64,000 bases of DNA, taken from the NCBI GenBank assembly GCA_951799445.1, contig OX637294.1, forward strand, positions 19,369,452 through 19,433,451, written 5' to 3'. Of the stretch, positions 5,347 through 64,000 are shown one piece after another; position 1 is the stretch's first letter; each line of letters opens with the position of its first letter. The notes beneath the pieces are model-generated. The model saw only the letters and a program-made list of their open reading frames with translations, did no database searches and was not told where the DNA came from. Both the position numbers and the translations under genes were made by a program. Source of the stretch: Pseudisothecium myosuroides (lineage: Eukaryota; Streptophyta; Bryopsida; Hypnales; Lembophyllaceae).

Positions 5347-5559
5347 CTGCAGTAGCGACTAGCGAGGGAGACCTAGTCGGGTGATGTGTTGATGCATTTG
5401 CAAGGAAACTCCGTAATGGTAGGCACCAAGCTTTCGATTTCCTCAAGCCCGCCTTATTTAGTCTCTTATTGCTGGGTCCGCGCGCGCCTTGGTTGAGTTG
5501 GTATACATGTTTCGGAGCGGACGCGGTCACGCTTGCTCGTGCAAGCATGGCCCGCACAT

Positions 5560-18999: not shown

Positions 19000-19320
19000 C
19001 AATGGAGAAGACAAGTTCTTTATATGCATGTAAGGCAGTAGGAGGTAAGACAACCCATGTGGGATATGCAAATTAGAATTTGTAGGAGCTCAACTACCCA
19101 TAGTTAAGTCAAATGAAGGAATTATTTTTGAAGTAAAATTTCAAACTTCATTTAGCCATAGTAGAGTAATTTTTTTCAAAAAAATTGAATTCAAAAAAGT
19201 TGAAAAATCATATTAAATTTCATATCCAAAAATCTGTTTGAGATTTTGAGCCTCCAATCAAAAGTTATGGACAAATCTCAAAAAGGGGTTGGAAAGGACA
19301 TTTCTTTGCATTGACATTTT
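19000..19320. repeat. Dispersed repeat, second copy of the 4480-4890 family
   Basis: Shares 'acaacccatgtgggatatgc', 'atagttaagtc', 'aatccgtttgagattttgag'-like text and 'aaaagttatggacaaat' with 4480-4890 and with both arms of the foldback element at 61245-62748. Confidence 0.6.
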
Positions 19321-30936: not shown

Positions 30937-30986
30937 CATTAGGAGGAAAATCAGGCCTCCATAAGGCCCCGAGATCCGTCACTACC

Positions 30987-31021
<35 letters not shown>

Positions 31022-31287
31022 ATCCCTTTTCCTATGTGGCTGATGATCCTCCACCTAGGATTGCTGATATGTAAAGAGTTTTTAATTTTTTTGGACTCCA
31101 TCTTCATCATTTTGCATGTCATAAAGATAGAGTACAAAAAATAAAAAATAAAAAAAATCTTGTTGACTGCTGCTGACTGCTGCTGACTGCTGCAGTCTGA
31201 AAATTTTAGCTGATTTGGGCACATTTGGATTGATTTTAGTTTAACAAAGGGAAGGGGCCTTTTGGAGGCCTCATTTCTCTCCTAATG
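30937..31287. mobile_element. CATTAG-type TIR MITE, copy 3, nested in the LINE RT
   Basis: Left end CATTAGGAGGAAAATCAGGC (continuing CTCC) and right end GGAGGCC (continuing TCATTTCTCTCCTAATG) are inverted repeats. It contains a 31-A run at 30988-31018 and CTGCTGACTGCTGACTGC-like triplicates. It splits the LINE reverse transcriptase between fingers and palm. Confidence 0.7.
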
Positions 31288-34200
31288 TGTAGGTATGAAC
31301 AATGAAAGCCGTTTGGTCTGTGCTTATAACGTCAGCCAGTAGAGGCTATAATCATTTTTGAAGGGCCTTGGCAAGCACCTTATAGGCCACATTAAGTAAA
31401 CTTATCGGTCTCCAATTGCTTAGTTCTTCTCGGGAGCCCCCTTTGTGCAGAAGGGCGATGGTACCCCTATTCATACCTGGAGGGAGAGCACCCTGTAGAA
31501 AGGATTGCTTGATCATTAAAGTGAACTCCACACCTATCAGTGGCCAAAACTTTTTATAGAACTCAATTATAACTCCTTCTGGACCTGGGCACTTATTTGG
31601 GGCCATGGCCTCGACAGCAAGGCGTAATTCCTCCTCCGTTATGACCTGTCCTAACACCTCTTTGGAATCTGCGGGAATGTTATTGGGGAGGAGGCCAATA
31701 AACTCTTCCATCGCCACATCACGCTCTGGGTTGTCAGCTTCAGCAGAGTACAAGTTGCCATAAAAGGTAGAACAGACCCTACCCAGACCAGCTTGATCCT
31801 CCATTAGACTACCTTGACTGTCCCGGAGCTTGTTGATCGCAGAGGAGGAGGATTTTTCACGCACCGCTTTGAAGAATTCCGTTGAAAGCATGTCACCTTT
31901 AAACTTCCATCGAATGCGAGCCCTTACCCTGATCCCCTGAATTTTATGAGTTTCCACCCCCTGGACCTGGAGCGTAGCAGCGTTGTGATTGCTTTGGATC
32001 AACGGATCATTAGGGTCGGTATGGAGTGCGGTTGTAGCTTGCGAGAGGAGGCCTCTAGCAGCTGTCTCTTCCTCCCGAAGGTCCTGCGCTTTACGCCGGC
32101 AAAAGGCCCGGTGTACTCTAAAAATGGCCTTGATTTTCCCAAAGAAGGAGGCAGACGGTGGAGTGGAAGCCCAAGTTTTCTCTATGAGCGGCCTAGCTGC
32201 GTCTAGTCAGCACGCATTCATCTTCCATCTGCTGGCCCTAGCAACTGATGATGCAAACTCAATAGTAGCCGACACAGGAGCGTAATCAGACTAGCCACTA
32301 TCACTACAAATGACGTAGTTGAGTAACTTACGACTAGCGTGACCTAAATTGTTCTTACACAGGTAAACCCGATTGAGGCGGGCCAAGATCCGATGCCCAT
32401 CATCTCGAAAATCGTCCTAAGAAAAAGGCAAACTGCCCGTGGATCTTGGCAAGTCTTCGACGTTCAGGTGACGTTTGAGGTCAGCAAACAAAGCCCGTTC
32501 TCTATTGGGAAGAAGGCAACCGCACGCGTTTGTTTTGTCCTGGCGGGATTCCACCATATTGAAATCTCCCGCCAAGACCCACCTGTTGGATGAGGGAAGT
32601 TCCCGGATGAGAGCCTCCCAGAACAAGTAGCGGGATTGGGAGTCATTGGGAGCGTACACATTAACTATACCTAAGTCACCTCCTGGGATGCCTTTTAGAG
32701 TTATCCATAGTGCTCTGTTTTCCATCACAATCCCTTAGGCGGAGACTAAATTGGCTAATTTTGGAGATACTAAGGTTGTGATGCCCCCTCGCCCGGCACC
32801 AGATCCTAGGGGATCATTGTTGTAACCAACACTCGCTGGGGCTGTCCATGATGAAGCTTGGCTCCACAATTGTTTGCCCAGAGCATCAGCGTCCTTGTTC
32901 CTCAACTTATGTTCTTGGACGAGCAGGATGTCTAATTGGGGCAGGATCTGAATATAATTCCAAAGTAAGGCAATGGAGGTTTTATTGGTAAGCCTTCTAA
33001 CGTTATAAGATAAAAGTTGTACAATCATAATCGATGATTTGAGGAGGAGGTCCTAGGAGCGGGGCCCTCTGCGCTGCGAAGATAATAAGAAGATTGGTAG
33101 CCCCAGGAGTCATACCCAGTCGGGATAGCGGACGCTGGAGGAAATGTGAGTGGAGAAGTGAGTGCCCTGGCGGCAACGCGAGCACCCCTCACCGAGATAG
33201 TCGCGCCTGCCGCATACAGGGGGGGAAAGTCACCTCCTTGAGCTGGCGGAGGCGGGGTAAGAATGATTTCCTGGGTTGGCCTGTAGCGGTCCGCCGTGAG
33301 CTGATGACGAGCCCTGTTTGCTCGAGCATTGTCACGTACTTCGGCCTAGTGAATTTTCCTAGGAGGGGGGCATTGTGCCTCGTGCATTGTGCATCTTCAA
33401 ATGCTTCTTATTCTTGAGGAGACGAGCTTATTTCGTCCTCATGTTGAAAATCCTCTTTTGAATATGCAGTTGCTGCTGGACGGTCTTATCCCTAGTAGCT
33501 TGAGGGTGAAGCTAGCCGGTTCCAACAAAATTTCTCTGGACCTGGATAGGCCTATTGTATGAGGTTCCTCCATTGGGAAAACCGCTCTCTTCTGAGCTCG
33601 CGCCATGGCCGGGCCACTGCTAAGGCGTGATGACTTTGGGGACGCTAGCGACGCTAGTGTGGGAGAGACGGGGCTATGCTTGCACTCGCCGGTTCCATTG
33701 AAGCTAAAATTTCTTCCTCAATGAGATGGGCCATATACATCTCAATCTCTGATTCCAGAGCCATGTCCACATCCTCATTTGTGGAAGGGCTATCATTGAT
33801 GCCTGAAATATGTAGCGGATTGTCAGACGGCAATAAGGGGAGGCTAAAGGAAGAGCCTTGCTCTCAGATGGGGCCCTGAAAGTCGCAGGAGCGCAGACAG
33901 CCTGAGGCGGGGCAGGATGAGTGTGGGCCGTCTGGACCGAAAAACCTATGGCCACACTGGGTGCGACACCCTCAGATCGAGGAAGCGGGCACGCTAACGC
34001 ATTCAAGGGGGCTGGGCCCGTGATTGAAATCTCAATATCCATGTCTATTGGGCCCGTGGGGTCGATGGCTTCAGCGGCTAGCTTGGGGATGTTGGTGGGG
34101 CTCCTGTGAGACCGGCGGATCGCCGTGCTCTTACTTTCTTGCCTTACAACTCGGATAAAGCCCTCCGCATCTTGACTTGGCCGGCAAGTCGCAAGGGAAC

Positions 34201-34899
34201 GAGACTTGGCTCTTCTTGTTTGTTTCTGCACCTTCTTTGAGCTCGGACTGGTTCGTGGATGCATCCGCTGCTCACGTTGGCTCGTCCCAACTGTAAGACT
34301 AGATGGACTTGAGGGTGTTTTAAGTAAACCTTTGCTAGGGCAATCTTCTTCCTTGTGGGGAGGCCGGGCACACAGTCTACAATCCGGGACCTCCTCTTCG
34401 ATTCATTAGTAATTTCAGAGAACTGCCCTGCTACATTGGCCACCTCTATTTTTGAAACGTACCCTCCAGCAGGGTCAATGGCAACACAAAATCTGGGGTC
34501 GCCCAATGCCGACGCGTTGAGGTCTTCCTCCAGAACTGTACCAACAGCTCCAGCAATAACTTGGGCACCATGTTGGTAAAACTCGAGCGGCATGTTCTTC
34601 AGGTAAATCCATCTTGAAATCGCAACTCCAGCTGGGTGGTGTGGGCGCTAGATTACCCACACTTGGTAATAGAGCGAACACCGACCAGGTTCTATGCCTT
34701 TATCCACTTTTTTAATATATGTGGGTGTTGTGAGCGCGGTCCACTGTGCCTTCCAAGCAATGGATCTTTTTTGCTAAGGTTTCCTAAGTGTCGTGGATGG
34801 CAGCGAATAATTAGAATGCATGTAGTAACTCACAAGTTAACTGCAATGCTCAGGGATGATGGTGAAATTCTAAATCTCTAACTATCTATCCTATGTCGA

Positions 34900-36090
34900 G
34901 GGTAGACTGGGTAGTTGGCATCATTTCTAACGTCCCTCACTATGTGAAAAGGGGAACCCCTATGTTCCTTCCATGAACCTCTAAGACTATCTTGGATTTT
35001 TAAAGCTCCACTTAGTACCCCTAAAGTTCCAACTTCTAAATGTAACTCTAGATTTTACTTCTTTAACTTGATTCTAAATATTAACTACCGACTTTTACTC
35101 TATGTTTTGACTTTTGACTCTAGGTTTTTATTCCTAAATTAACTCTAAAATTTACCCTTGAATTTTAACTCTATGTTTTAACTTTTAACTCTAAGTTTTT
35201 ACTCCTAAATTAACTCTAAACTCTACCCTTGAATTTGAACTCTAGGTTTTAGCTTTTAACTCTAGTTTTTTACTCCTAAATTAACTCTAATATTTATCCT
35301 TGAATTTTAACTCTAGGTTTTAGCTTTTAACTCTAGGTTTTAACTTTTAACTCTAAGTTTTTACTCGTAAATTAACTCTAAAATCTACCCTTGAATTTTA
35401 ACTCTAGGTTTTTACTCCTAAGTTAACTCTAAAATTCACCCTCAAATTCTAACTCTAGGTTTTAATTTTTCACTCTAGGTTTTATTTCTCAAATTGATCC
35501 CAAGTTTTGACTTCTAGGTTTGATTCTACTTCTAACGTTTACTTCTACTTTGAACTTTGATTTTACTATCTAATTTTTATTCCAAATTTTAACTCCTAAA
35601 TTTTACCCTAGCTTTCTTTTCTAAACTACCCTAAGGTTTCACTGGAAATTTTAACCCCCTTAGTTAGACTTTCAAATTAATTCTATTTTTTAACTTTCCA
35701 AAGTTAACTCTAGATTTTTACCTTAGAAGTTTAACTTTTACAATTAGATTGTAACTTGACTCTAGTTCTAACCGCTAATTAATCCCTAATTTTAATCCTA
35801 AATTCTCTTTCTACCCTAATTCCCTAAGTTCCATCCATGATTCTTTTTGGATGAATTTTACTCAAAATTCCTCCGTCCTACCCCCTACCGCTTCACTTAG
35901 CCTAACGAAGTCAATTTAAAGCCAAATCCTAAGTGTAATATGTTTTTGGAAACCTCTATCCCTAATCTATAACTTTTGAATCTAAACTTCTAATTTGCAC
36001 TAATCTCGGATGCTAATCACGCTCTAAGGGCTGATTAGGAAAATAAATGCTAATTAGGGAGAAACATCAAAGATTAAATCAAAAACTCAC
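34900..36090. repeat. Degenerate minisatellite, roughly 70-bp unit
   Basis: From about 35030 to 35480 the text cycles through AACTCTAGGTTTTA, CTTTTAACTCTAAGTTTTT, ACTCCTAAATTAACTCTAAA and ACCCTTGAATTTTA with a period near 70 bp. Flanks out to 35800 have shorter, irregular copies of the same words. It is pyrimidine-skewed on the plus strand and non-coding. Confidence 0.65.
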
Positions 36091-36870: not shown

Positions 36871-36876
36871 ATACGC

Positions 36877-37100
36877 TGGTTCTGATTGTTGGCTGGCTGT
36901 TATGCTAGTTCTGATTGTTGGCTGGCGTATGCTGGTTCTGATGTGGGCTGGGCGTATGCTAGTTCTGATGTGGGCTGGGCGTATGCTAGCTCTGGAAAAA
37001 GTGGATTTTTGACTAAGGCTAAATAAAAAGACTAGATTCTTGACTAAGGCTAAATAAAAAGACTAGATTCTTGACTAAGGCTAAAAAGACTAGATTCTTG
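36877..37100. repeat. Two small adjacent tandem arrays
   Basis: First, about five copies of a GGTTCTGATGTGGGCTGG/GCGTATGCTA unit (about 29-35 bp) at 36877-36995. Second, three copies of GACTAAGGCTAAATAAAAAG/ACTAGATTCTT (about 33 bp) at 37010-37100. Confidence 0.75.
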
Positions 37101-37317
37101 CTAACCTAGGGGGGAATAGAACTTTGGGGGGGTGCTAAACCCACTAAGATTTTTGGGATACAACTAACTAAATAAAACTTTGGGGAACAACTAAACTCTC
37201 TAAACTTTGGGAAATGACTAAACTTCACTAAATGCAAAGGAACCTACATATCTTGGAAGCTAAACTCTGGAGGTTTCCACAAAGGTCTTGGAAACTAGAC
37301 TTTGGATCTAAACACGG

Positions 37318-37750
37318 GGGAGGTGCAAAGCTTCGCCGTTAAATTGGTTTTAACACCAACTTTAGGACTTCTTGACACCCCGGGGATTCAAAGCTCCGCC
37401 GTCTATACTTTTAACACACGTTTTAGGACTTCTACTTCGTCACTCGTTCAAAGCTTCGCCGTTTCCAAGGGGGGGCCACACAATGAGAGAGACTTTAGAA
37501 GAGGGAAAAAACTAAACTTTCAAAGAAAACACACACGAGTTCAAAGCTTCGCCGTTTCCAAGGGGGGTCCACACAATGAGAGAGACTTTAGAAGAGGGAA
37601 AAAACTAAACTTTTAAAGAAAATACACACAAGTTCAAAGCTTCGCCGTCCCGGAGAGGGGTCCACTCAACAAGGAGAAGATTAAAAGAAGGTTTGGGATA
37701 AACTTTAGCAAAACATATACAAGGAGGTTCAAAGCTTCGCCGTCCCGGAG
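37318..37750. repeat. Irregular tandem array with recurring TTCAAAGCTTCGCCGT motif
   Basis: The 16-mer or a close variant occurs at about 37323, 37387, 37446, 37539, 37632 and 37728, spaced 60-95 bp. Two units at 37446-37538 and 37539-37631 are nearly identical for about 93 bp (shared CCACACAATGAGAGAGACTT). Diverged single motifs (AAAGCTTTGCCGT) recur at about 42488 and 42566. The spacers are purine-rich. No protein is plausible. Confidence 0.8.
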
Positions 37751-39620
37751 GGGGGTCCACTCAACAAAGAGAAGGTTAGAAGAGGGTGTAAGAAAAAAAT
37801 ACAAAGAGAAAACACAGAAGTTAGACCACGTGGCAACACAAAGCTCACACGCTAAAGGACCCCCAAAGTAGCATCGCCAAGGTACGGTGGGGGGTGACTT
37901 TAGGATTAGTGTAAGATACAAAATGACTCTTAAAACTTCACAAGTTAGACCACAACACGTACAAGAGAGAGAGAGGCTCTCCACTTACAATAAGGTACCA
38001 AAACTTCGCAAAAGAGTACACAAAACAAGGTAGAAGGACCCCCAAGGACCTTCAAAGCTTGAAAATAAGCAACAATGGAGCCAAAAGTGCTCCGAAAACA
38101 CCATAGAGGTTTTTGGCTTCAAACGCCAAAATATCCAAAACAAATTGGACCCACGGATCCAAAACAAGAATTAGGGGTGTTCTAGAGAGAGAAATGGGGC
38201 TCTTATATAGGTTTCCAAGGGCTCACCCCTCCCTCTAGAGTTGTAAGGTAACCTTATCAACGAGGATTTTCATCCTCATCTTCAAAGATTTTCATTCTAA
38301 ATCCTAAAAATCTACTTCTACCATCTATGCTGGACCAACATCCTAACTTTTGGAGATTAGCTCCAATCGCCGAACGGATTGCGCTGTTGGATCCAGATCG
38401 CCGTGTTTAGTCCTAGTTCACCCTTTTCCCCGTCCCGAGGCCAAAAATCCATCGTAGGCTAATTTAGTTTAAAAACCAAATCGTGGTAAAATCCTAGATC
38501 TTGGGGGTCTCCTATTTTGAGAAATGTGAATAGCCTAGGGTCTCCGGTAGGTGCGAGAGAGTCGGGAAGGACTTTTGGTTGACTTCGTTTCGCCATCGTA
38601 TGGTCCCGGAATGCCGGTCAACGTGGCGGGGACCCCGCCACGTGGTTAATTCCCGAGGAATCTCGCCGGTTCGGGTACTTGCCGCTATCGGAATGTCGTG
38701 AAACTTCACGGACCGCATTATTAACATAAAACAAGCTAGTCTAATTTTTAGTGAGATTTTATTGTAACCTGGGTAATTTCCATGAAATTCCCGTTGGAGG
38801 TTAGGAGGGTTGACCACCCGGAAAAGGTTCTTCTGCAAGTCGGAAGATGCCGGGATTTTTCACGTGACCTCTCAGGGAGTTGCATGAAAGAAGTGCGGGT
38901 GTGCTTCCGTACCTGGCACGATTGGTCAATGGAGATTAAAACTGGCCATCTCCTTGAATTAGCGACGGTGCGGGAATCTTCTGCAGGTGGAGGAATCTTG
39001 GCGAACCGATTTCGCCGTTGGACTCCTAGCATGAGATTCTTCCTAAAACACCGTCCTTGGGTTGTAGATTCCTCCTCGGTCTCGGTCTTGCGTTAGTGGG
39101 GCTCCTGCATGCTAACAATCGGGATTTTGGGAATTCGTCGACCTAATGGGGAATTCTAAATCTAACTCTAAGACCCGACCTAGTGGCCTCGCTGCGGATC
39201 CCTCAGATCGACCTAGCCATGAATTGCCACATTCATGGTGGGATTTAGCCCTTTTGAGGCTGTGTGACTCAAATCCTCCAAATCTAACCTTTTCGTTATT
39301 TCTATATTATTTTTAGGCAAGGTTTGGGGGGATTCTAAGTAAAACACAAATCTAGACCAAATACTATAATGGGTATGACACAACCCTATTTTGGTTCTAC
39401 ACTCTTTTTATAGTTTTTTGTATACTTTTATCAACTTTAAATTGCAAATTTTCAAAAAAATAATTCTACGAGTCCCAAGTGACAAATTGGGAGCTCACAG
39501 GTGGCTAGGATTAAAAGCGGGCAACCATCGTTGAAACAGAATTGTACCCGCTTTGAGGTGACATGGTGTCAGTGAGAGCATTTATTTTACCAGCTCAAGC
39601 GTGTCGAGTTTGATGTAGAA
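37750..39620. repeat. Large non-coding repeat, diverged relative at 42.4-44.2 kb
   Basis: Ordered similarities link this block to 42440-44160 in the same orientation: 'taacttttggaga...agctc' then '...attgcgc', and 'tagtgagattttattgtaacctgggtaatttc' beside 'tagtgcaattttatcatagcttggataatttc'. A weak tRNA-primer-like TGGTGTCAGTGAGAGC follows CA at 39564. Together these could be remnants of one retroelement's long terminal or leader sequence. No pol-type gene lies between them. Confidence 0.45.
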
Positions 39621-48553: not shown

Positions 48554-51500
48554 ATGGCCAATGAGGAGGAAAGCAACATGGAAGGAGCTGACTTAAATCC
48601 ACCACCACCGCCACCAAAGTTTCCAAAAGGTCGAAAACCATCAAGTGGAACGGATATAGGATTTGAAGAAAGCACTTCTGTTTCAGAGGTTGCACCATCT
48701 GAGGTACCAATTGTTGGTGCTCTAGATTCTTCTACCATAGCGCAAGGATCAACACAAGGATCAATTCGAGAATCAACACGAGGGTCAACCTTGAAAAGGG
48801 GTAGCATGGGAGATGAACCTGATAGTAGAAGGAGGAAAACAAACAACTCAATGTCAATCTTGAAAGTTCGAGAGTCAACAACCATGGATGGAAAACCGCC
48901 TCGAAAGCAATGGGGTTCAAAACGTGTTTCCAAAGGTTTAGATGGTTTTGATTTAGATAATCCAGAAGTGAAAGAATTGTTGCGTAGATTAAAAGAAGCA
49001 GAAGAAAGCACTAGTAGTAGCAACGGCCATGCTAAGCCTATCTCTCCAAAACCTCGAGAATACCATCGCGGAATTAAGGTTGATCTAAGAAATTCTTTCA
49101 ATATATCACTTGTGCAAATGTAGCTTAATAGATTAAACTTTTTTGTCTTACATTTCATGCAATTTTGTAATATATATTATTTTGCATGAAAAATGTTTGG
49201 CCATTATTAATTTTGGAATGGGGCAGGCACTTTACAGGGCAGTACAAGAAAATGAGATGCCTATGCGAATGGCATATGAACAACTGGATGAACTTGCTGC
49301 TAATGCAGAGCGTGTCAAGTTTGCAATTGAAACTAATCGGTCTCTACTCACTCTTCAGGTACTTTATAACTACCACTATACAATGCAACGGCATTATGAA
49401 CAAAAGACTAACTAAAGCAAAGGTTACAAACAATATTTCTTATTTCATACGAATCATTTTCTTATTAGGTGAAAAAAGCCAATGAGAGAATTCTACGAGT
49501 TGCATTCATGGCTTGGACATTAGAAGTTGGATACCAGAAACATAAGAGACGGCACATGAGAAGGGCCCTTGCATGGTCAATAAGAAGTTTGGTGTCACGA
49601 GTGTTCAAAGGCTTGCGTCAAATGAAGAACATTGGCAAGAAAAGGAGGCGTTTTGAAACTTCAGTCAAAAATATTCTTCAACGTCGAAAACTAGCCTTGA
49701 CATGGTATACTCTATTGAATATGAAAATGGCATTGAAAAAATTCATAATCAAGAGAGACTCATATCAAGTGGATTTTTTGTTTATTTATTGTAAATTTGT
49801 AATGATAACAAATGATTACAGGAATGTATGGAAGAAAATGATTGCTGATATACATTGCAAGCATCAAGAAATGAAGTAAATTTACTTCTCATACTTACAA
49901 CTTACTTTTTTTCTTGTATACATGTAACACTTTAGTCTTTCAAAATATCCTAAAGCTAAGGCTATATTGTAAGTGTGCTAGGCCAATGTCGTTGCCTATG
50001 AAAAATACATTTGTATATTATATATATGGTATATTTGCCAACAAGTTTTTGTCCAAAACATTCTATGTGACATTCATAAATGAAAATGTGGATGCAATGA
50101 TTTAATCTCATCTCACTACAAATGCTAGAATAAGGCTTTAGATAAGAAGGTCTATAATAGATAAGTGGGCAAAAAATACATCATATATTATTTATAAAAT
50201 CTTTCAAAAGTATATTCTTACCACGGTGTATGCACATATGTAGGAAAGAAAAAAAGTTGCAGAAGAGTATAGACAAAAAGTTTAGAGAAGATATGGCTAA
50301 GCGTGCCATTGTAGTCATGAGACGATCACAATTACGTCGCTACTTTCACTTTTTTCAGGTTTTTCCTTAGTTGCATAACCAAAAGTAGTCATAATAATCA
50401 AGAATGCTCAAATAAAAGCTATAGAACTTTTATTCTATTAAAAGACAAAATTTTGAGCTTATTCATGATTCTAAGATTAAGAGGCTGACTTTCCACCAAA
50501 TACATAGAAAAATTGATGAAAAAGTGGGATTGCAGGAAGGAGTGGAAGCAAGGATGCAAGCACAATCATTTCTAAAACAAATATTGATCCTCCTCCTTAA
50601 AAAATGTGTTTTTCGTGCATTTGTTGCACTTAGAGATGTTGCTCAAAAAAGAAAACACAATCGAATTTTCATCAAGTAAAGCCTTAGCACTACCTAAATA
50701 AACAAATAAATCTCTACCCAATCTTCATGATGGAACTTACCTTGAGTTTTTCACAACATGTCTTTATTTTGTAATATGTGAATGTTTTGTCACTTGAGCA
50801 AGACTTAGGATATCCACATGCTTCATCCAATCATTTGATTTTGTGCAACTTTGCAAAATACAAACATTTGGTAGTATGAATGTGAATGCTAGTAGACATT
50901 TTATGCAACTAACAAATGTCATTATCGTGTAGGAGAACAGAGCCATGGTACGTAGGATGGTGCTTAAGAAATGTATTAAGGGTTGGTGGAAGTTGTTAGT
51001 TAAAAACCAGTATTTGCGTCGTTCAGCTCAAGAAAACAATTTGTTGCACTCAATGTTTAGTAAATGGTATACTTGGATCAAATATAAAAAGTACAAAAGA
51101 AGGCAATTGACTTGCAATATAAAGAAGCTAGAGCGCAAATTGGTAAATCGAATGTTTCTAGCGTTTTTGGATGTTGTTAAAGAACATAATTGTGTCCGTG
51201 GTCTTGTCACTCGACAATTGAGGAAAGCAGGTAGAAGACTTCTAAATCGGTGTTTTCAAGCTTGGATTTCTTTCATGCAGGTTTAATTTTCATTACTTTT
51301 CTATAAACTTACAAGATTAATTGTTTATGATAAACTAATCAAATTTTATAGTACATCATATATAGATATATTCCAGAGGAACAATGTAAAGTCAAATATT
51401 TAGATATGTATAGGTGGTGAACAATGGTGTAGCTTTTTTTAAGAATGTTGGGTGATTGCAAGAAATACTTGTACTATTTTATGTTATACATAGTATGCTA

Positions 51501-53372
51501 ATTTTTTTTTGGCCATAACTTTTTCATTTTGACTCCAAACGACTCAAGATTTATAGTTAAGGTACTCAAAATAATTCAATACCTAAACTAATTTTTTGCA
51601 ATTTTAAAAATACTTTATTGTCCAAAAATAGCCCCAATTTTATGCCACACTTGCCAATTTGGGGGATTATAGTACTATTTACTATCCCAAAAAAAAATTT
51701 GGAAGTGAAATGTAGAGAGGATGGTTTTCTAATAGACTTGTAGCTATTGCTTGAACAAATTCTAAAAATAGTTAATTTTATATGTGAGAAAGTCCACAAA
51801 GTGAGCTTCTTCCTACTTGCATTTCAAAACATATAGAATGTTATTTTGGTAGTTCATTTGGTGAATGCCCATCTTCATAGAGTTGTTACAAATGACCAAT
51901 TTTTATTTTATTTATTAATTTCTTTCTTATTTTTACTAATTAAAAAATTGAAATATCTATTTTCCTGAGATTTGGCACTTTTCTAGTTTTCCTACTTAGA
52001 AAATTTTCTATGATTTTCCTTCCATAGTTACCTTCACCTTAAAAAGTATATACATTGGCCATATTTTTTTTAAATTAAAAAAAAATCTAAATTTAAAGTA
52101 TTCTAGAAAACTAAGCATGAATACAATAAAAAGTAAAAACGCAACAAATTCAACTGAAGAGTTTTTTAAATTCTTGCAATCATCTTGTTCTACAAATGTT
52201 CTACAATCCAAACACATTGTTTAGATTTAAATAAGGAAGTTACAATTTAAAACTTTAGAAAGTTCTTTCGTATAGTTTCTAACATATAAAGACATCAGAT
52301 GGGAGTGCAAAAGAAGATGCACAATGTACAAAGATTTGCAAGTGCAGCTGAAAAAGAAAATGGAAAATTGCGCTCAGATAATGAAAGATTATCTACAATC
52401 ATTGACACCGGGGATTGGAATAAAGACCGTATTTCTGACTTGGTGGCAGCGCAACAAGTCCTTTCTGCAGAGCGAGTAGCTTTGACAAAACTTATTGGTC
52501 GTCTGCAACGACAACATCAACAAGCACTTGACCAACATGACCAACAAGAACACGAGATCAAACATCTAAAGGATCGGCTTCTCTCAGAGGTGAGCATATA
52601 TCTTTTACCTCAAGTGGCCGACTTTGATGTTTATACTAAATTTATTTGAAGAGCATAGAGGTGAAGAATATATGATCTAATTACTTTCCACACTAATAAT
52701 TTTATTAGTTATATATGAAAGAGAATACATAACATTGTTATCCATTTTCATGTGGGTTATAGAATAACTATTTTGAACGCAACAAACTCTTGATCAAGGG
52801 AGCGTCTAGCTTCAACACCTTGATGCGAGTCATGAAGCATGACGTACGTGAATCCTAAATATACATATGAGTACATATTAAGGGGTGTAGAATTTTCATG
52901 TCCATAGATTAGTCAATTATCATTTATAAGTACTAACACATCTCACACTCTATATGCAGATGTTGAAGAGGGAAACCACAACTCCAGAAGTTGTGTATGA
53001 AGTAAACAACATGGCCATGGATCAGGTAAAAAAGGAAAATACAATCTTTCTAAAACTCAGTTTTTTGTCATTGTTTAATAAAAAATGGATAATGGGCATA
53101 AAAATTTAAGATTATCTCACAAAGCTTTGGGATTGTTTGCATATTATAAGCAGGTGTCGGTATTTCCAGATGGAGAGCTTCATGTCAAGGCGCTCAAACA
53201 ACGCAAGGGAGGAAGATGGTCAAATACAGTACCAAATAGTGGCACCATAAGAACACCATCTGTGTTGTCAAACAAATCATTTGGAACTCCTCTTTTTTAC
53301 ACTCCAAGATCCCCTCTCAAGCCTAGAGCACCAAGTCCTCCACTATCCTACAAGAGATACTCATTCATGTAA
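48554..53372 (+). CDS. Sfi1-like W-rich helical / coiled-coil protein (10 exons)
   Basis: Exons 48554-49078, 49227-49358, 49469-49875, 50244-50358, 50536-50675, 50941-51280, 52299-52589, 52763-52843, 52960-53025 and 53154-53372 join in phase into about 771 residues. The N-terminus is low-complexity (NPPPPPPKFPKG; Ser/Arg-rich). The middle has repeated basic helices with spaced aromatic positions (AFMAWTLEVGYQKHKRRHMR; KCIKGWWKLL; MFSKWYTWIKYKKYKRR; CFQAWISFM), the pattern of Sfi1 centrin-binding repeats. Exon 7 is a coiled coil (AAEKENGKLRSDNERLS; RLQRQHQQALDQHDQQEHE). The C-terminus is Pro/Ser-rich and basic. Sfi1 proteins bind centrin at centrosomes and basal bodies, so a role in the flagellar apparatus of sperm is a reasonable inference. 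The third exon contains an odd hydrophobic stretch (VDFLFIYCKFVMI) that may be a short unrecognised intron. The start could be 48530, and further upstream exons are possible. Confidence 0.75.
51410..52240. repeat. Dispersed repeat in intron 6 of the Sfi1-like gene
   Basis: Aligns in order with 56450-57250: 'tatgctaattttttttt', 'ggctccaaa..gactcaagatt', 'cttgccaatttgggg', 'tttggaagtgaaat', 'tagacttgtagctattg'. No coding potential or clear termini were seen. Confidence 0.6.
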
Positions 53373-56449: not shown

Positions 56450-57250
56450 TACCATAAAGGATGACGAGACTAAAAATGCAAGGTAAAGGATGAATGCAAA
56501 AAACATTTATACTAGTTTTTTGTCACACATTCTATGCTGATTTTTTTTTGCCCCTAACTTTTGCATTATGGCTCCAAAAAGACTCAAGATTCATTGCTAA
56601 GATATTCATGACTATTATAAACCTTTGTATAAAGAAAAAATCATTTTTCAAAAATCATTTATTATTTAAAAATATACCTTCATTGAATGTCATACTTGTC
56701 AGTTTGGAGGAGGTTAGTACAATTTCTAGCCCCACAGCTAACAAATTTGGATGTGAAATTTGGAAGATTGATCTTCTAGTAGATTCGTAGCTATTGTTCA
56801 AAGGAATTTTTTAAATAATTAATTCTATGTTATCGAAAAGTCCACAATAAGCTTTATTTTGTTTGCTTTTTGATATATGTAAAATATTATTTTGGTGCTT
56901 CTTTCAGGTAATCTCCATAGAATTGTTACAAATTTTCCAAATTTTTGTAAAATTTTAATTATTTTTCCTTTTTTTTACAAATAAAAAACATCAAAATAAC
57001 TATTTACTTGGGATTTTACACTTTCTAATTAGTTCTCCTCCTTTCTCTTATTAGGGTGCAAACTCCTTAAGAAGTCCATATTCTTTTAAGTTAATTTTTT
57101 TTAAATTTTTAAATATTCAAGAAAAAACATGAGTACTCTAAAAACACAACAAAATTATAAATATTCCTTACAATTACTCAAAACTAGTCATTCCCAAAAC
57201 TTCAATAATAAAATCTTTCGTTGATATGTGATCTAAACATCATTTAATCA
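56450..57250. repeat. Dispersed repeat, second copy of 51410-52240
   Basis: Same orientation as the copy in the Sfi1-like intron, with ordered word matches along about 800 bp. The plus-strand open frame at 56494-56790 is not conserved in the other copy. Confidence 0.6.
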
Positions 57251-57449: not shown

Positions 57450-58870
57450 CATCTAAGAGCATCTGCAATGCGTCCGTCAACAGTGCCTTTATCGGCACTT
57501 TCCCGGGCAAAAAGCCATTTGTAATAAAAATCGTGCTCCAATGCAACCTCTATGGATCCCGTCATTTTCACGGTCTCGGTATGCAACCTTCCCACTCCGG
57601 CAAATTTCCAAAATTTGAAGGGCCCTTATCACGTTATTTGATGACGGGTGGCTAGAAGGCTCTATGGGGCTTTGCAAAGGTTGATTATAGACATGGTGTA
57701 GCCGAAATAGCCATATATTGGCCATTGGGGGGCTAAACTAGTGTTTTTAGACTGTTTGAGGTGTGAACGGAGTTGTTTTGGGGCACCTTTGAGGTGGTTG
57801 TAACCCTAGGCCGCCCCTTTGCTTATTCATTCTCTTCAAGTCTTGTGTGTGAAGGTTTCATGGAGTGTTAGGAAATGGTATACCTTGAAGGTTGTTTGTA
57901 GATGATGGTGGTGTTGCCAATTTACTAAATCTAAGGTTTCTCCTTGTGTACTTCAATTCTTGTGCAAGACTAGTCCTATCGAGATAAGGTAGAAGCATTT
58001 AGGAGTATTTGAGTAGCTTATTATTTGAAGAGAATGATTTAGGTGCTGATGTTAGAACACTAGAGTGGTTGGAGAGGTTGGATTTGTTGTACTTGTGTTG
58101 GAGGCGTTGGTAGTGACGTGCGGAAGCGCTGACAAATTCAAATCTTGGAGCTTTGGTATTGGAGGTGCTGATTTGGAGTTGGAGGGGCGTGGAGGGCTTA
58201 AGAGGTTGCTAAGAAGACTTAAGAAGAAGCTCTTGAGTGTAAGGATTCATGTCCAACTCGTTTCGTGCAATTCTGATGAAAATTGAGAAAGTTATGAGAG
58301 TGAATGGGATAGTCAAAACTTTTATGTGTGCTGGACCAAACTAGCAAGAGTGCTGATTTGGTGTTTTGAGACCATTATGGTGGTGATTTAGTGCTAGAAA
58401 GACCACAAATTGCGTTAGCTATCCAAAAACTGCAAAATTGTTGAAAACTATCAAAAATTGAAGAAGTTATGGCATTTTGAAGTTTGGCATCGGGGTTTGT
58501 TTTTGGAGGTGTTTTTGGTGGTAGTTGTTGATGTTTTGCAAGCGTTGATAGCTTGGCAAAACGGGAGAGACAAAGACCGGTTGACTTTTAGAAGTTACTG
58601 GATTATTTATTACGTCAATTACCGAGGTAACTTTTAGAAGTTACAAAGATAATTACTGAGATAATTTTGAAAGTTATGAGAATATTTACTAGGGTAATTT
58701 TAGAAGTTATTGGAGTAGTTACTGGGGTAATTTTGAAAGTTACCAAGAAAATTACTGAGGTAATTTTTGAATTATTTTGTAAAAAAAAAAAAAAAAAAAT
58801 TGTAGTATTTCTCCATTATATGAGGGGATGATTTTAGTTTGGGAGGTGTAGAAGATTCGACGGTTGAGAT
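57450..58870 (+). other. Probable leader / 5' part of the retroelement
   Basis: GT-rich on the plus strand and compositionally distinct from the AT-rich DNA before 57450. It may contain the 5' LTR and untranslated leader of the Gag-PR-DNMT element, but the other LTR is outside the window, so the limits cannot be fixed. The plus frame at 58065-58286 has no recognisable domain. Confidence 0.35.
58594..58768. repeat. 33-bp tandem repeat upstream of gag
   Basis: About five imperfect units of GTTACCAAGAAAATTACTGA / GGTAATTTTGAAA. A 19-A run follows at about 58781-58799. Confidence 0.75.
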
Positions 58871-58876
58871 CTGTTT

Positions 58877-60207
58877 ATGGTACAGACACGTTCCCGTGAC
58901 TACAGTACATTGGAGGAGATTGATGTTCGTGGAGAAGCCGGCGGAGACGAGCTAGCGTTGCCGCTTGTAAAGGTTGATCTACCCAATACTTGGGAGATCA
59001 GTGCCTTTGATAATATGGAGGACCATGGCGGTGGATCTGTGGTTCGGGACCGCTATTCAGGGAGAGCTGAGGGTGTGGCCTTCAATGATTGAAAGACTAG
59101 ATTTTGATCTTGGCAACGAATCCAAAGACAACGCAATGCGATGTTTAATGATTGGTGGGTCTTTGAACAACTGCCCACCCATCTTGAGTTTGAGGCGCTG
59201 CAGGCCTATGATTCTTGGTTTGAAGATTATAAGAATGAGCTTGAGGAGGTAGAGGACTATTGGGCTCGAAGGGTAGAGTTAGTTACTGCTTTGAAAGAGA
59301 GAGCTGTATTTCCAGCAGCTTAAGCTTCAAAGCCTAGTGATGGAGATGAAGACAAGGGCGAGGAAGCTACCTCAGGCCCTGATGCAGCGAGAACTGCAAG
59401 ATTCAAATCAAAGTCCACTATTAATAGCGCCGATGGGACTACATCCACATTCATCTCGCGGTTGTCTCGAGCATCGATTAAAAGCGATAGCTACGATGGG
59501 CCCTCTTCCTCAATTTGATCCTCTCTTGTTGTTCTTTGCACATTTAGAGATAGAGTTTGGCGGTATCCGTCGAGATCGCATGCGTCACATCCAAGACTTC
59601 AAGAAAGAGGTTGGAGACACTTCCCGTATTATGTATGCAAGGCTATCTAAGTTTGCCCGTGAAAGTGGAGATGCATTCATGGAGTGCCAATTGGTGGAGC
59701 TTTATATGGAAAAACAAGACAAGAAGATCCGTGACATGGCACATCCTTACATATTGTTGGCATATGGCGGACGAGCTACTTTAGCTCAAGCTTTTGCTAC
59801 TGTGGAACACTTGGATCGAGGGCTATGTGCGGAAGAGGCTGGGAGATTGTCGTCTATTATGACTTCAACAACAAGTCAGTCAAAAGTTGTTGTTGGTGGC
59901 CCTAGCAAGAGCCAAGGAACTCCCAAGGCCTCCAAGCAAATTGCTATGGCAGCTGAAGCGGGAGGTGATAGCCAATCCTCGTATGCGATGTTGGAACTGC
60001 GGATTGTTAGGCCATAGAAAAAGAGATTGCCCTATAGATACATCATGTGAGGACAAAAATGATACTACTAACAAAGGCAATGCATCTACAACAAACAAGA
60101 GGCAGCAGAAGAAGGCACAAAGCGGAGGTTCACCTCCAAAGTGTACTTATGCACCTTGTAGCCGAGTTGGTCACACAAAAGACAAATGTTGGGTGAAGAA
60201 TCCATAG
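58877..60207 (+). pseudogene. Retroelement Gag, frameshifted, with two zinc knuckles
   Basis: The reading starts with MVQTRS at 58877 and moves through three frames (58877-59092, 59141-59323, 59337-60017, then 59887-60207), so several indels have broken it. The central part has the helical, charged look of a capsid-region Gag (RHIQDFKKEVGDTSRIMYAR; ELYMEKQDKKIRDMAHPYIL). The C-terminus carries a CX2CX4HX4C knuckle (CWNCGLLGHRKRDC) at about 59990-60033 and a second variant CX4CX4HX4C motif (CTYAPCSRVGHTKDKC) at about 60142-60189. Such knuckles bind the element's RNA during particle assembly. The feature lies directly upstream of the protease and methyltransferase parts. It is not functional as it stands. 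Confidence 0.8.
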
Positions 60208-61097
60208 CTGAGACCTCAGTCCTTTACTCCACAAGCTGCTCAAGGGAGTGGATCAAATTCTGAGGGCAATAGTCTTGAGGCACGTATGGGAGAGTTGCAA
60301 AACACTCTAGCATTGCTCGTTGCAGCAACAATAAAGACCACACCAGTATCTTCTGGTTCAAAGATTGGATCAGATAGATTTGAGTATGGTGCACTTGGTG
60401 AGGTGGTTGTGGCAGTGGCTACTAGATCACAAGTTAGATTTGTGCCAGTTGCACATGTGAAAGATTAAAATTCAACCACACAAGTTAGGTCTCATGTGCG
60501 CCACTAAGAGCCTTCTAATAGCATTGGGTAGTCAAGACTACTTATGACATTTGGCTTGGCAGATGTGGTGACTAGTCCATCTATTGGAGCAATTTCTGAT
60601 AGAGAAGATTCATCTATTGAAAAAGATATGGTCAAGAATTTGGCCTTCAAATTATTGGAGGTTCCACTATTCTCTGGGATCCAATTGCAGAGTAGCAACT
60701 TTGATGCATCTGTTGTATATCATATGGCAGGAAAAATGATGCAAGGTACAATTCAAATGCCTGCCAACGTGGCCATGAGGGAGAGAAATAAGTCTTCTTT
60801 GGATGATGGTGAAGAAGGCTTAAGAAAAGATGTTGCCAAGGTAGCAGCAGAGGCTTTGCGATGTTGAAAGGGATGGCCAAAAGGGTCTCTTTTACAAGCA
60901 GAGTTTGACAGCAGTTTGACTTCAAGTGGAGAAACTGTTGGCAATGGTATTGAAGTTGCTACAAGCTATTTGGCAACATTACTTGCTCGAGCAACTCATG
61001 AGTGCTTGCAAGTCAAACCTGGAGTGGTACGATTGGCCAATTCTGGTCATGTTTTTTCTGTAGCTCGAGGTGATGCATCTCAAGTATTTCCACAAAA
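60208..61097 (+). pseudogene. Gag-protease linker, decayed
   Basis: Plus-strand frames at 60286-60468, 60544-60867 and 60916-61125 follow one another with stops and shifts between. They contain Glu/Ser-rich, soluble-looking sequence (MGELQNTLALLVAATIKT; DREDSSIEKDMVKNLAFKLL; ATSYLATLLARATHECLQVK). No known domain was recognised, but the continuity in direction and composition with Gag and protease supports a single former polyprotein. Confidence 0.5.
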
Positions 61098-62895
61098 GTA
61101 TTACTTGACATTGGTGCTCAAGTAGTTATGTTAGGAAAACTTCTAGCTCAGAGCTTTTGGCTTCTTTCTAGTGACTTGGACCCATGTCATTTTACTATAG
61201 CAACATCGCTTGGGGGCACGGAGTAGTCTATGGGGATGACAAAGCACTACTAGAGAAATCAGTGTCCGTTTCTGCAAAGTTTTTACTAAAAGAGACAGTT
61301 GATTAGGACAGCTTGATTTGGACACTTTTTAGCATACTTCTGTTGATAATGCCACATAGGATGAAGGGCCTTTGGAATGTGCCACATCAATTAAAATCAA
61401 TTACCACGTCATCAAAAATTATTATTATTATTATTTTTTAAATAATAATATTATTATTATTAACAAAAAAATTATTATTATTTGGACATGCGCCACGTAG
61501 GCAAAATCTGCCAAATAAGCAAATATGCCACGTCATCTGACACACAACGTGGAAAGCACTACCACATCATCAGACTAATTACTATAATCCAATTCATTAA
61601 AATCCCCAATTTTTTGCACTTCAAAATTTAAAATAAGATATTCAGCTCTACATTCAAAGTAATCCAATGTACACGTGGAATAGGACTTCGAATGCCGCCA
61701 ACTTTGATGAGTGAAGAGAGGAAAAGACAAGGCCTTTATAGGAATGGTGTAGTAAGAGGTGAGACAACCCATATGGGATATGCAAATTGAAGCTCAACCG
61801 TTCATAGTTAAGTCACAAGTAGAAATTGTGATAAAAGTATAATTTCAGACCTCGTTTAGGCATAGTAGATTGAGTTTTTTCAAAAAACTTTGAACTAATA
61901 AAAGTTGAAAATTCAAGTTAAGTTTCACCTCCAAAAATCCGTTTGAGATTTAGAGACTCCAGTCAAAAGTTATGAGCAAATTTCAGATAGGATGTTTGAA
62001 ATTGTTTTAAAAAATGTCCTTTCCAACCCCTCTTCGAAATTTGTCCATAACTTTTTACTGGAGTCTCTAAATCTCAAAAGGATTTTTGTAGATGAAACTT
62101 AACTTGAATTTTCAACTTTTATTAGTTCAAAGTTTTTTGAAAAAACTCAATCTACTATGCCTAAACGAGGTCTGAAATTCTATTTTCATCACAATTTCTA
62201 CTTGTGACTTAACTATGAACGGTTGAGCTTCAATTTGCATATCCCATATGGGTTGTCTCACCTCTTACCACCCCACTCCTATAAAGGCCTTGTCTTCTCC
62301 TCTCTTCACACATCAAAGTTGGTGGCATTCAAGGTTCAATTCCAAAACAACATTGGATTACTTTGAAAATAGTACTAAGTTTTCTATCCTAAATTTTGAA
62401 GTGCCAAATTTACTATGGAAACCTTACAATAATTAAATGAATTTTATTAAATTATCTGTTGATGTGGTAGTCCTATCCACGTGGTGGATCTCATGACATG
62501 GCATTTATTGTGGATTTTTAAATGATAATAATAATAATTTATTATTATTATTGTTAATATTATTATTATTATTAATAATTTTTTATGATGTTGGCTCATG
62601 TATTAAACATTTTACAATTAACAAGTTTATGCAATCTATGTTGAATTGCAAAACTAGATGCAAAATTGCCATTCTTGCAACGCGAATAGTTAGTATCAAC
62701 ACAAAACAACAGAAATTGTGTTAATTCGGGCCCCCCTCTCTAGTAGTGAAGGAGCCACTACGACTTTGGTTCAAGGTGGGCACTAATGTGTACACTCACA
62801 TCTCCTTGAGATGTCTTGTAACAGGTGCTACCAGCTATGACATTTTATTGGGGCAACAAACTATATATACCATTGGTTTTGGTCATGATTCTTAG
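61098..62895 (+). pseudogene. Retropepsin-like aspartic protease, split by a CACTA-type element
   Basis: From 61098 the frame reads VLLDIGAQVVMLGKLLAQSF; DIGA sits where retropepsins have D(T/S)GA. After LGGTE there is a TAG at 61221. The frame is then cut at 61244 by the element at 61245-62748. It resumes in the same register at 62752 with EPLRLWFKV and continues to SYDILLGQQ, which fits the C-terminal I-L-G segment of the protease fold. A TAG follows at 62893. The protease would have cleaved the polyprotein. The DTG-to-DIG change and the stops mean it is dead. Confidence 0.75.
61242..62751. mobile_element. Non-autonomous CACTA-type foldback element, 1,504 bp, AAG duplication
   Basis: CACTACTAGAGA at 61245 and its inverse CTCTAGTAGTG ending at 62748 are the termini, and AAG flanks both (61242-61244 and 62749-62751). 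CACTA ends with a 3-bp duplication are diagnostic. Nearly all of the interior is one imperfect palindrome centred near 62010: the arms at about 61375-62000 and 62020-62600 pair, including ATT-rich tracts at both outer ends. No transposase is encoded. The arms share sequence with 4480-4890 and 19000-19320. Confidence 0.85.
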
Positions 62896-62949
62896 ACTGA
62901 GGAAGCATGGTTTAGACCGGGGTAGTCACAAGGAAATGGGCGAAAAGAA

Positions 62950-64000
62950 GTGATTTCTGTCAGTTTTGGTGCTTCTGTTGGTGTGGTTGAAGGCTTGGCG
63001 GCAGTGTTTAAATGTGTTGCAGAATGGTTTACGACTGGAGATTTGCTGCTTGAGGAAAATATGTCTGCTGTAAACTCACCTCCAGAGTTTGATTTGCAAA
63101 CACAAGGCGAAATTAAGCACTTTGTAAGTCATCCCAAAGATCCTATACTACCATGAATTTCACCAAAAGATTTGGCTGAGAAATGCCATACATTGGTAGA
63201 GGGAATAGACTAGCATCTATGGCGGCCGCAATCTACTCTACCACCTTTACAACAACTTGTGAATCTTCATGATGATCCAGTAGGTATAGTTTTTGTGGAA
63301 CTTTTTGCTGTGCTTGGTACTGGTTTAACTGCAGTTTTGGAGGCGGGATTGTCCATAAGAAGTTATACGTATGTGGACAACAATATTGTGGTGAGCAGAG
63401 CTGCAAAACACCATTTGGAACAGCTAAGGAAGCAATACCCAAAGCAACTACCTGCGAGTGCTATTCAAGGGTATATGTCTCGAATTCCTTCAGACATTGC
63501 TTTGATTAGAGAAGATCTTCTGAGGTTGGGCAAAGTGGACCTTGTGATGGCTGGATGGCCTTGTCAAGGGCATACTCGAGCAAGTCCTCGCCAAGGACTC
63601 CAAGACCCATGCTCAAGTTTATTTTGGGAGCTCTTGCAGTTGTTGCATTAGTGGCAACGTAGACAAGCCACAAGTGTAGCTTATATTTTTGAAAATGTGC
63701 CTCCATTAGGAGATAATGGAGCTCGAATTCACGAGGATGTCAAGGTGGTATATCAGCACCTTGGAGAGCCAATTGTAGTAGATGCTGCAGCTCTTGGTTC
63801 TTATGCCAATCGTTTGCGGTGGAAGTGGACCAATTTGGCTCATATGCCAGGGATTTCAGCGGCATTACATTGCATCCATCGTCCAAAGGGCAGACACTTG
63901 ATGACATTTTAGAGGACGGACGATCTGTCCAAGCAGTGGTGCAAGAAGATCAGACACCATTGGCTATAGTCAATCGTGTAGGGATGCCTCGATTAGCATT
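62950..64000 (+). pseudogene. Retroelement-borne C5-cytosine DNA methyltransferase (DNMT3-like), truncated by window end
   Basis: The frame at 62950-63912 contains, in canonical order, motif I (VELFAVLGTGLTAVLEAGL at about 63295), motif IV (GWPCQGHTRA with the catalytic Cys codon at 63562-63564), motif VI (ENVP at 63691) and a motif VIII-like stretch (DAAALGSYANRLRWKWTNLA). The RxRxxWxNL pattern and GLxxxxSSLFWELL text after motif IV resemble DNMT3 rather than CMT; the unpermuted motif order argues against DRM. Enzymes of this class transfer methyl from S-adenosylmethionine to cytosine C5. In-frame stops (63154, 63211, 63649) and a frameshift near 63880, after which the text TLDDILEDGRSVQ and PLAIVNRVGMPR continues to the edge, show decay. 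The second Gly of motif I is Val. Position after Gag and protease in the same direction indicates it is part of the retroelement, not a host gene. Confidence 0.85.

Follow-up and report, generated by a model that had tools for sequence, protein, structure and literature searches.

A decayed retrotransposon copy from Pseudisothecium myosuroides joins Gag and a retropepsin to a predicted DNMT3-like cytosine methyltransferase

The window analyzed here, a 64,000-nucleotide stretch of Pseudisothecium myosuroides DNA, ends in a decayed retroelement copy that runs on the + strand from 58877 to the window's end at 64000 and encodes, in order, a Gag with two CCHC knuckles, a retropepsin, and an unpermuted DNMT3-like C5-methyltransferase. 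Gag is spread over three frames: its N-terminal part (58877..59500; frame 2, ATG at 58877) contains three in-frame stops and is 69% identical to the relative P0002 in tblastn comparisons, the capsid-like part (59481..59960; frame 3) reaches 85% identity to the same protein, and the C-terminal part with its linker (59905..61107; frame 1, five in-frame stops) again 69%. The first zinc knuckle (59989..60030; CWNCGLLGHRKRDC) was recovered by Pfam model PF00098 (zf-CCHC) with an E value of 5e-6 in one window ORF, and the second, CCHC-type knuckle (60142..60189; CTYAPCSRVGHTKDKC) is present in the consensus of the relatives. Directly before the Gag start lies a + strand tandem repeat of ~33 bp (58617..58776), possibly leader or LTR sequence. 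The stretch before Gag has no similarity to L016, a complete-looking relative described below, and a search of the window for a PBS (tRNA-Met) gave chance-level matches, none of them near the element. Searches of the window for tRNAs and Rfam families found nothing, and the coding parts of the element have no tblastx copy elsewhere in the 64 kb.

The retropepsin, called on the basis of Pfam Asp_protease_2 matches in the relatives, is split. Its first part, with the active-site motif LDIGA (61095..61244, + strand; frame 3, one stop), is 77% identical to P0002 in tblastn, and its second part, with YDILLG at 62836 followed by a spacer, occupies 62749..63213 (+ strand; frame 1, four stops). Between them lies an insertion of 1,504 bp (61245..62748) with the terminal repeats CACTACTAGAGA...TCTCTAGTAGTG, inverted arms of 380 nt, and a flanking 3-bp duplication, AAG (61242-61244 and 62749-62751). 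This is a CACTA-like nonautonomous DNA transposon, CACTA being the superfamily name that we presume for 61245-62748; related sequence recurs in the window at 4635-4860 and 19004-19356. The methyltransferase (63214..63998, + strand) is recognized by PF00145 with an E value of 2.1e-6 in one ORF and extends beyond the window's end; the domain HMM scores 343 bits on the window piece. It presents, in this order, what we take to be motifs I (63292), IV (GWPCQGH; 63553), VI (FENV; 63688), and VIII (63802), with a stop at 63649 and a change from frame 1 to frame 3 between 63801 and 63900. The stretch 62734-63900, which spans the protease tail and runs into the methyltransferase, is 78% identical to P0002 (tblastn). 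All the parts named in the original prediction (Gag, zinc knuckles, a retropepsin-like site, and motifs I, IV, VI, and VIII in one direction) were found on the + strand, far above chance. The single register that it proposed between the protease and motif VI is confined to the stretch from 62749 to about 63900, which contains five stops; it does not include the protease active site, which lies in another frame with the insertion between the protease halves.

The window copy is dead: it has accumulated 14 in-frame stops and 4 further frame changes, and its protease is interrupted by the insertion. Its stops are rich in Trp-to-stop and Gln-to-stop changes and its CpG content is low, a pattern that fits past methylation and deamination. 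The CpG value of the 5-kb flank, 0.35, is lower still, and low CpG is equally compatible with ordinary host silencing of any transposon. Elsewhere in the window, at about 6.1-11.7 kb, there is a kinase gene, for which, among the nine matches listed (E values up to 1e-40), the named ones all come from flowering plants, at 44 to 50% identity, and the others reach 57 to 62%; this places the DNA in a streptophyte, with no finer assignment.

On sequence grounds, the window methyltransferase is of the DNMT3-like class with linear motif order, as had been predicted, and this classification is upheld by profile comparison, by fold comparison, and by a small tree with 19 bacterial and phage rows. As in the catalytic domain of mammalian DNMT3A and DNMT3B, the order is linear, and these enzymes are the best PDB profile matches and, among the matches listed, the best fold matches, at an identity of only ~25%; several of the matched DNMT3 structures contain DNA. 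The fold lists comprise the best 50 matches, and the fact that DRM and CMT are not among the matches listed excludes nothing. In DRM enzymes, motifs VI-X precede I-V; the order is linear in the window and unpermuted (I-IV-VI-VIII-X) in the relatives, and DRM membership is therefore rejected. Passages of PMC5890265 describe DRM as a rearranged plant paralogue of DNMT3. In an alignment of 26 rows, motif IV is invariant at its Cys and Gln columns and motif VI at its Glu and Val columns (P0020 ends before VI), and the His, Arg, and Arg of motif VIII are conserved at 90% or more. Unlike animal DNMT3, which has PWWP and ADD companion domains (from passages of PMC12344493), the relatives scanned with Pfam showed neither.

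Database searches with the piece comprising the protease tail and the methyltransferase revealed at least 18 matching proteins with 45 to 79% identity, P0002 among them with an E value of 3.4e-199. The three protein searches each scored the ~8,000 candidates sharing most words, and such protein counts are accordingly lower bounds. A methyltransferase standing always apart from Gag and protease in other copies would have told against the original prediction; instead, the fusion is common to 18 of the 19 matched proteins, which cover 94 to 99% of the query, and 14 of these 18 align along Gag and protease as well, as Gag-PR-DNMT proteins of 1228 to 1451 aa. Five of the 14 were checked with Pfam, and in these full-length relatives no RT or integrase was detected within the Gag-PR-DNMT protein. 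One member of the family, P0024 (MARPO_0008s0049), is a protein from Marchantia polymorpha, so that the family extends to this liverwort.

The one relative that can be read beyond the Gag-PR-DNMT ORF is L016, a unit of 9.2 kb whose record belongs to a cyanobacterial MAG. It closes on itself by 127 nt, as expected from an assembly with collapsed LTRs, and its RT and RNase H precede the integrase, the Ty3/Gypsy-type order. The Gag-PR-DNMT ORF ends in UAG CAAUCA (3489-3497; TAG CAATCA in the DNA), which is a type I leaky-stop motif, and a second ORF coding for RT-RNaseH-integrase-PHD continues in frame after the UAG, its earliest Met being residue 117. Stop codon readthrough of type I in tobamoviruses uses UAG followed by CARYYA (as given in passages of PMC5382211), and in MLV an in-frame UAG separates Gag and Pol (likewise in passages of PMC5009743). 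L016 resembles the former in combining UAG and CARYYA with an in-frame downstream ORF, in this one sequence, and the latter in having its in-frame UAG before the Pol part. It is unlike both in that the stop follows a methyltransferase, which places that enzyme on the abundant, Gag side of the predicted readthrough stop. The leaky stop was read in L016 alone; for the 14 long relatives, this end is known at the protein level. In the window copy, the DNMT-RT junction, the RT, the integrase, and the 3' LTR would lie past 64000. Behind its integrase, L016 encodes a PHD finger similar to those of CHD4, UHRF1, and KDM5. A scan of viral contigs with the second ORF of L016 found no relative.

We accordingly regard the window copy as a dead LTR-type retrotransposon whose intact relatives are predicted to make a DNMT3-like enzyme together with Gag and protease and likely to methylate their own cDNA, a reading to which we assign a probability of about 60%. 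The relatives encode Gag-CCHC-PR-DNMT as one protein, and in L016, the one relative in which the continuation is visible, UAG CAAUCA ends the ORF ahead of the in-frame Pol and PHD segment. Most ribosomes would halt at the UAG and yield Gag-PR-DNMT, and a few would read through to make the Pol enzymes. The protease would then free the methyltransferase inside the particle, so that the enzyme would be present at near-capsid dosage per particle. There, cytosines of the newly made double-stranded cDNA would be methylated by it ahead of integration, and the copy would therefore arrive marked like host heterochromatin or avoid being recognized as foreign. In addition, the PHD finger might steer insertion toward particular histone H3 states. 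Two observations count against this explanation: KnitGypsy-Dnmt3, a Gypsy DNMT, gave no methylation in yeast, a result that its authors call inconclusive, and the RNA structure is not unique, with a second, non-overlapping segment of the same element at a z score of -4.85. Tentatively, and at clearly less than even odds, one might extend the reading to a widespread streptophyte lineage, land plants included, in which a DNMT3 placed before a leaky UAG is a particle component at structural dosage that marks its own cDNA before integration, while the PHD finger at the Pol end reads the chromatin of the landing site.

Rather unlikely, in our estimate, is the action of the methyltransferase in trans, on host chromatin or rival elements or to damp the element's own transposition, in place of marking cDNA. 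DNMT3-class enzymes act on chromosomal DNA, and the resemblance of the L016 PHD finger to those of chromatin proteins such as CHD4, UHRF1, and KDM5 would suit such a role. Host-wide effects in Symbiodinium and slowed retrotransposition are both discussed as possibilities in passages of PMC5890265. Nevertheless, the position beside the protease in the L016 Gag product suggests delivery into particles, and none of the six Gag-PR-DNMT relatives scanned (one of them partial) has a chromatin-reading Pfam domain. Improbable is a domain that binds RNA or DNA, or methylates RNA, as a particle component with little DNA methylation. Its precedent is that, according to passages of PMC5890265, neither KnitGypsy-Dnmt3, for which the authors call the result inconclusive, nor SymbioLINE-Dnmt, for which they raise RNA methylation, methylated DNA in yeast; against it, catalytic motifs IV, VI, and VIII are conserved, and the fold matches DNMT3 structures, several with DNA.

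We consider it very improbable that the enzyme came from a bacterium or phage and was captured apart from DNMT3. The motif patterns also pulled in phage enzymes from IMG/VR and Streptomyces enzymes, but the bacterial and phage enzymes match over 28 to 162 query residues at 30 to 64% identity, whereas the best profile and fold matches (for the fold, among those listed) are DNMT3A and DNMT3B. A tree built from 16 element sequences, a single DNMT3A fragment spanning motifs I-VIII, and the 19 bacterial and phage rows separates the bacterial and phage enzymes from those of the elements at 100/99 and keeps DNMT3A with the elements, in a sampling of one DNMT3 that is without DNMT1, CMT, DRM, and host-plant DNMT3 and carries a long-branch warning. 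A chance joint of a Gag-PR fragment with a DNMT3 gene or pseudogene of the host has negligible probability. In its favor one might cite a window copy that is broken and ends at 64000 with the full element unseen, but it is ruled out by the presence of the fusion in at least 18 separate proteins and in the complete-looking L016 unit; moreover, the alignment over 62734-63900 passes from protease to DNMT in a single frame, with no gap for splicing.

A transposon with a methylating enzyme is a paradox because DNA methylation is a main host weapon against transposons, and passages of PMC5890265 leave the role of retroelement DNMTs open. Should the enzyme be produced in Gag amounts and packaged together with the cDNA, the suggestion made there that cDNA is marked before it integrates could be tested directly in particles, and Marchantia polymorpha offers a tractable laboratory host for this element family. 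A 2019 paper bases a hypothesis on the loss of DNA-methylase-encoding transposons, which it describes as absent from land plants, "such as tracheophytes" (passages of PMC6338049); the Marchantia protein P0024 speaks against this absence for liverworts, which are non-tracheophytes.

The statement in the original prediction that retroelements with their own methyltransferase had been reported by de Mendoza and colleagues in 2018 was confirmed in passages of PMC5890265. Like KnitGypsy-Dnmt3 of Klebsormidium nitens, the present family is probably LTR Gypsy-type, with an intronless, unpermuted DNMT3-class domain within an element polyprotein. KnitGypsy-Dnmt3 has its DNMT in the Pol polyprotein ORF and DIRS-like repeats (passages of PMC5890265), whereas the DNMT of L016 belongs to the Gag-PR ORF, with a leaky-type stop before RT; the two are set apart by the published description, and none of our matches was identified as a K. 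nitens sequence. SymbioDIRS-Dnmt3 and SymbioLINE-Dnmt of dinoflagellates are likewise retroelements with their own DNMT but belong to other retroelement classes; passages of the same paper have the former methylating CG de novo in yeast and the authors regarding these as independent acquisitions.

P0025 and P0026 are single-ORF Gag-CCHC-PR-DNMT-RT-RNaseH-INT polyproteins with the same domain order, whose DNMT groups with the family and whose RT groups with L016; unlike L016, they have no stop between DNMT and RT, and no PHD pattern was found in them. P0027, P0032, and P0038 (RT-RNaseH-DNMT-INT-PHD; metagenome/ENA) have a homologous DNMT and, as in L016, a PHD finger behind the integrase; P0028 has the RT-RNaseH-DNMT-INT layout and a homologous DNMT with no PHD match. 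In contrast to the Gag-PR-DNMT family, these four have the DNMT between RNase H and integrase and form a separate clade in the DNMT, RT, and integrase trees. The first DNMT tree, which left out the partial P0020, P0043, and P0044 and also P0042 (no DNMT match), has long branches for P0040, P0037, P0031, and P0023. The DNMT tree groups P0037 with the RT-RNaseH-DNMT-INT elements, but the integrase tree groups it with L016, so either parts were exchanged or a long branch misleads; P0040 (CCHC and DNMT, without RT) falls on the RT-RNaseH-DNMT-INT side of the first DNMT tree, which speaks against a tidy correspondence between layout and clade. Since the RT and integrase trees contain one family member, L016, and no DNMT-free Ty3 element, they do not separate one capture from several. 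Among the titles listed in our search of the open-access literature, there was neither a Gag-side DNMT nor a land-plant DNMT retroelement. To the known retroelements with their own DNMT, the present analysis adds a DNMT on the Gag side of a leaky-type stop in L016 and the presence of the family in Marchantia.

The sequence from 58877 to the end of the window, on the + strand, is, judging from its coding content, a decayed retroelement, and we put the probability that it is one carrying a DNMT3-like C5-methyltransferase (DNMT) at about 95%. tblastn searches with its closest relative, the database protein P0002, recovered three Gag blocks at 58877-59500 (frame 2), 59481-59960 (frame 3) and 59905-61107 (frame 1), the leading portion of a retropepsin (PR) at 61095-61244 (frame 3; the alignment extends to 61262) and the PR remainder with the DNMT at 62734-63900 (frame 1). 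Per-block identity from Gag through the DNMT is 69-85%, and a final piece running to the window end (63801-63998, frame 3) aligns more weakly (48%). Together with two CCHC knuckles (59989-60030 and 60142-60189) and DNMT signatures at 63292, 63553, 63688 and 63802, which we take to be motifs I, IV, VI and VIII, all located on the + strand, these blocks bear out the original prediction of a Gag with zinc knuckles, a retropepsin and four methyltransferase motifs on one strand. The Pfam models zf-CCHC (E = 5e-6) and DNA_methylase (E = 2.1e-6) each matched a single window ORF, and no Gag or capsid model matched among the window ORFs scanned. Element parts downstream of the DNMT fall beyond the window end.

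This copy is unable to make a whole version of any of its proteins. It has four frame changes, and the aligned blocks contain 15 stops, of which that at 61251 falls in an insert, leaving 14 in the element. At these, P0002 has Trp (six), Gln (four), Arg (one, a TGA) or another residue (three); by the codon table, 11 of the 14 could each have arisen from one C-to-T or G-to-A substitution. The observed/expected CpG ratios of the two coding parts of the element are 0.47 and 0.42, against 0.91 for a kinase gene (6.1-11.7 kb), 0.60 for the first 57 kb of the window and 0.35 for the 5-kb flank, so CpG depletion is not peculiar to the element. The protease is interrupted by a 1,504-bp insertion (61245-62748) whose 12-nt terminal repeats (CACTACTAGAGA/TCTCTAGTAGTG), long inverted arms (380 nt) and 3-bp duplication (AAG) fit a non-autonomous DNA transposon, presumably CACTA-like. 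A related core sequence occurs twice more in the window (4635-4860 and 19004-19356).

Elsewhere in the window, the receptor-like kinase gene (6160-11713) is spread over several ORFs, two of them without a Pfam match; its kinase part is ~57-62% identical to the database proteins P0049, P0051 and P0053, which also have its N-terminal part in common. The gene indicates a streptophyte host. Tandem-repeat arrays (35093-35483 and 36875-37822) have units of ~20 to 160 bp, and ORFs on the - strand at 29629-34647 look by eye like LINE remnants, none of the four scanned having a Pfam match. Upstream of the element lies a ~550-bp direct repeat pair (51450-51997 and 56488-57043), 70% identical and ~5 kb apart.

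A query of the protease tail plus DNMT (~8,000 candidates scored) matched at least 19 proteins. Eighteen of these (P0002-P0019) align over 94-99% of the query at 45-79% identity, and 14 of the 18 exceed 1200 aa; a chance joint of a retroelement piece and a methyltransferase is rejected, given that these 18 match across both parts. The nineteenth, P0020 from Closterium sp. NIES-54, covers 27% of the query and also has a protease motif and methyltransferase motifs I and IV. Pfam scans of six of the 18 (P0002, P0003, P0006, P0008, P0009 and P0016) found DNA_methylase and a retropepsin-type match in all six, with the Asp_protease_2 cut-off exceeded in three, and no reverse transcriptase (RT), RNase H or integrase in any of the six.

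With P0016 as the query, at least 38 proteins were recovered, itself included, among them the Marchantia polymorpha hypothetical protein MARPO_0008s0049 (P0024). The latter combines a Pfam-detected methyltransferase with motifs I, IV, VI and VIII, a protease motif and, by eye, Gag-like sequence, and on these sequence features is a land-plant case of a retroelement DNMT. In the relevant part of PMC6338049, DNA-methylase transposons are stated to be absent from land plants, such as tracheophytes. The five Marchantia methyltransferases counted in the pertinent section of PMC5784723 are of the MET, CMT and DRM classes, based on genes known from Arabidopsis, and so apparently do not include P0024.

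The organization beyond the DNMT is provided by L016 (CADCWO010000201.1, 9285 bp), which emerged from a scan of prokaryotic genome contigs. Its best segment is 53% identical to P0008 residues 50-687, and although filed under a Synechococcales cyanobacterium MAG, it is probably a mis-binned eukaryote contig. The contig begins and ends with the same 127 nt, a pattern expected when an assembly graph loops through a repeat, and we accordingly treat the 9158-bp unit as complete. ORF1, from an ATG at 8609 near one end and continuing from the other end to 3491, codes for Gag-CCHC-CCHC-PR-DNMT; ORF2 (3492-6635) codes for RT, RNase H, integrase and a PHD finger resembling those of CHD4, UHRF1 and KDM5. 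The two share one frame across AAG TAG CAA TCA, and in this one sequence the stop context matches the type I readthrough motif of plant viruses, described in the relevant part of PMC5382211 as UAG then CARYYA. The first Met of ORF2 is residue 117, shortly ahead of the RT match at 128. The RNA 3' of the stop has unusually strong structure (z -5.8), and a sliding-window control run on fewer shuffles ranks it lowest of 109 windows (-5.0). A non-overlapping L016 window reaches -4.85, so the structure adds a little to the case. On balance, we favor stop readthrough as a fairly probable property of this family.

Three DNMT-bearing element layouts occur among the relatives. The first, that of the window element's family, is Gag-PR-DNMT, stop, RT-RNaseH-INT-PHD, with the stop and Pol known from L016 alone; the second is a single Gag-PR-DNMT-RT-RNaseH-INT ORF (P0025 and P0026); the third is RT-RNaseH-DNMT-INT-PHD (P0027, whose cluster represents 196 sequences, P0032 and P0038, and P0028 without a PHD match). 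A DNMT tree of 41 rows places the first two layouts and Marchantia on one side (26 rows, support 98/97), with the window copy and P0002 paired at 100/99, and the third on the other (15 rows), including P0040, which sits on a long branch and combines CCHC with DNMT but lacks RT. The main split recurs in the RT tree (100/100) and in the integrase tree. Exceptions in the latter are P0037, which the DNMT tree puts with layout 3, and P0043, both of which group with L016. As the RT and integrase trees show this split, the DNMT has for the most part been coinherited with its elements. It may have shifted position within its polyprotein, been exchanged or been captured on two occasions.

Under the readthrough arrangement, the UAG would halt most translation to yield Gag-PR-DNMT, while a few per cent would pass it to yield Pol. 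The methyltransferase could thereby be packed into particles at near-capsid dosage and methylate the cDNA ahead of integration, which we tentatively advance as a possible main role. The sections of de Mendoza 2018 (PMC5890265) that bear on this propose cDNA methylation for DIRS elements and report that the SymbioDIRS DNMT3 methylates CG in yeast, the Gypsy retroelement DNMT giving a negative, inconclusive result. They also describe the retroelement DNMTs of Klebsormidium and Symbiodinium, in agreement with the charophyte and dinoflagellate precedent originally cited; a 2025 paper (PMC12344493) mentions "LTR Copia and DIRS" elements with DNMT3. The Klebsormidium DNMT lies in the Pol ORF, whereas that of L016 lies in the Gag-PR ORF. 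Relative to what those sections of PMC5890265 describe, the novelty is a DNMT on the Gag side of the stop, a position that would suit cDNA methylation because enzyme dosage would track the capsid rather than the polymerase.
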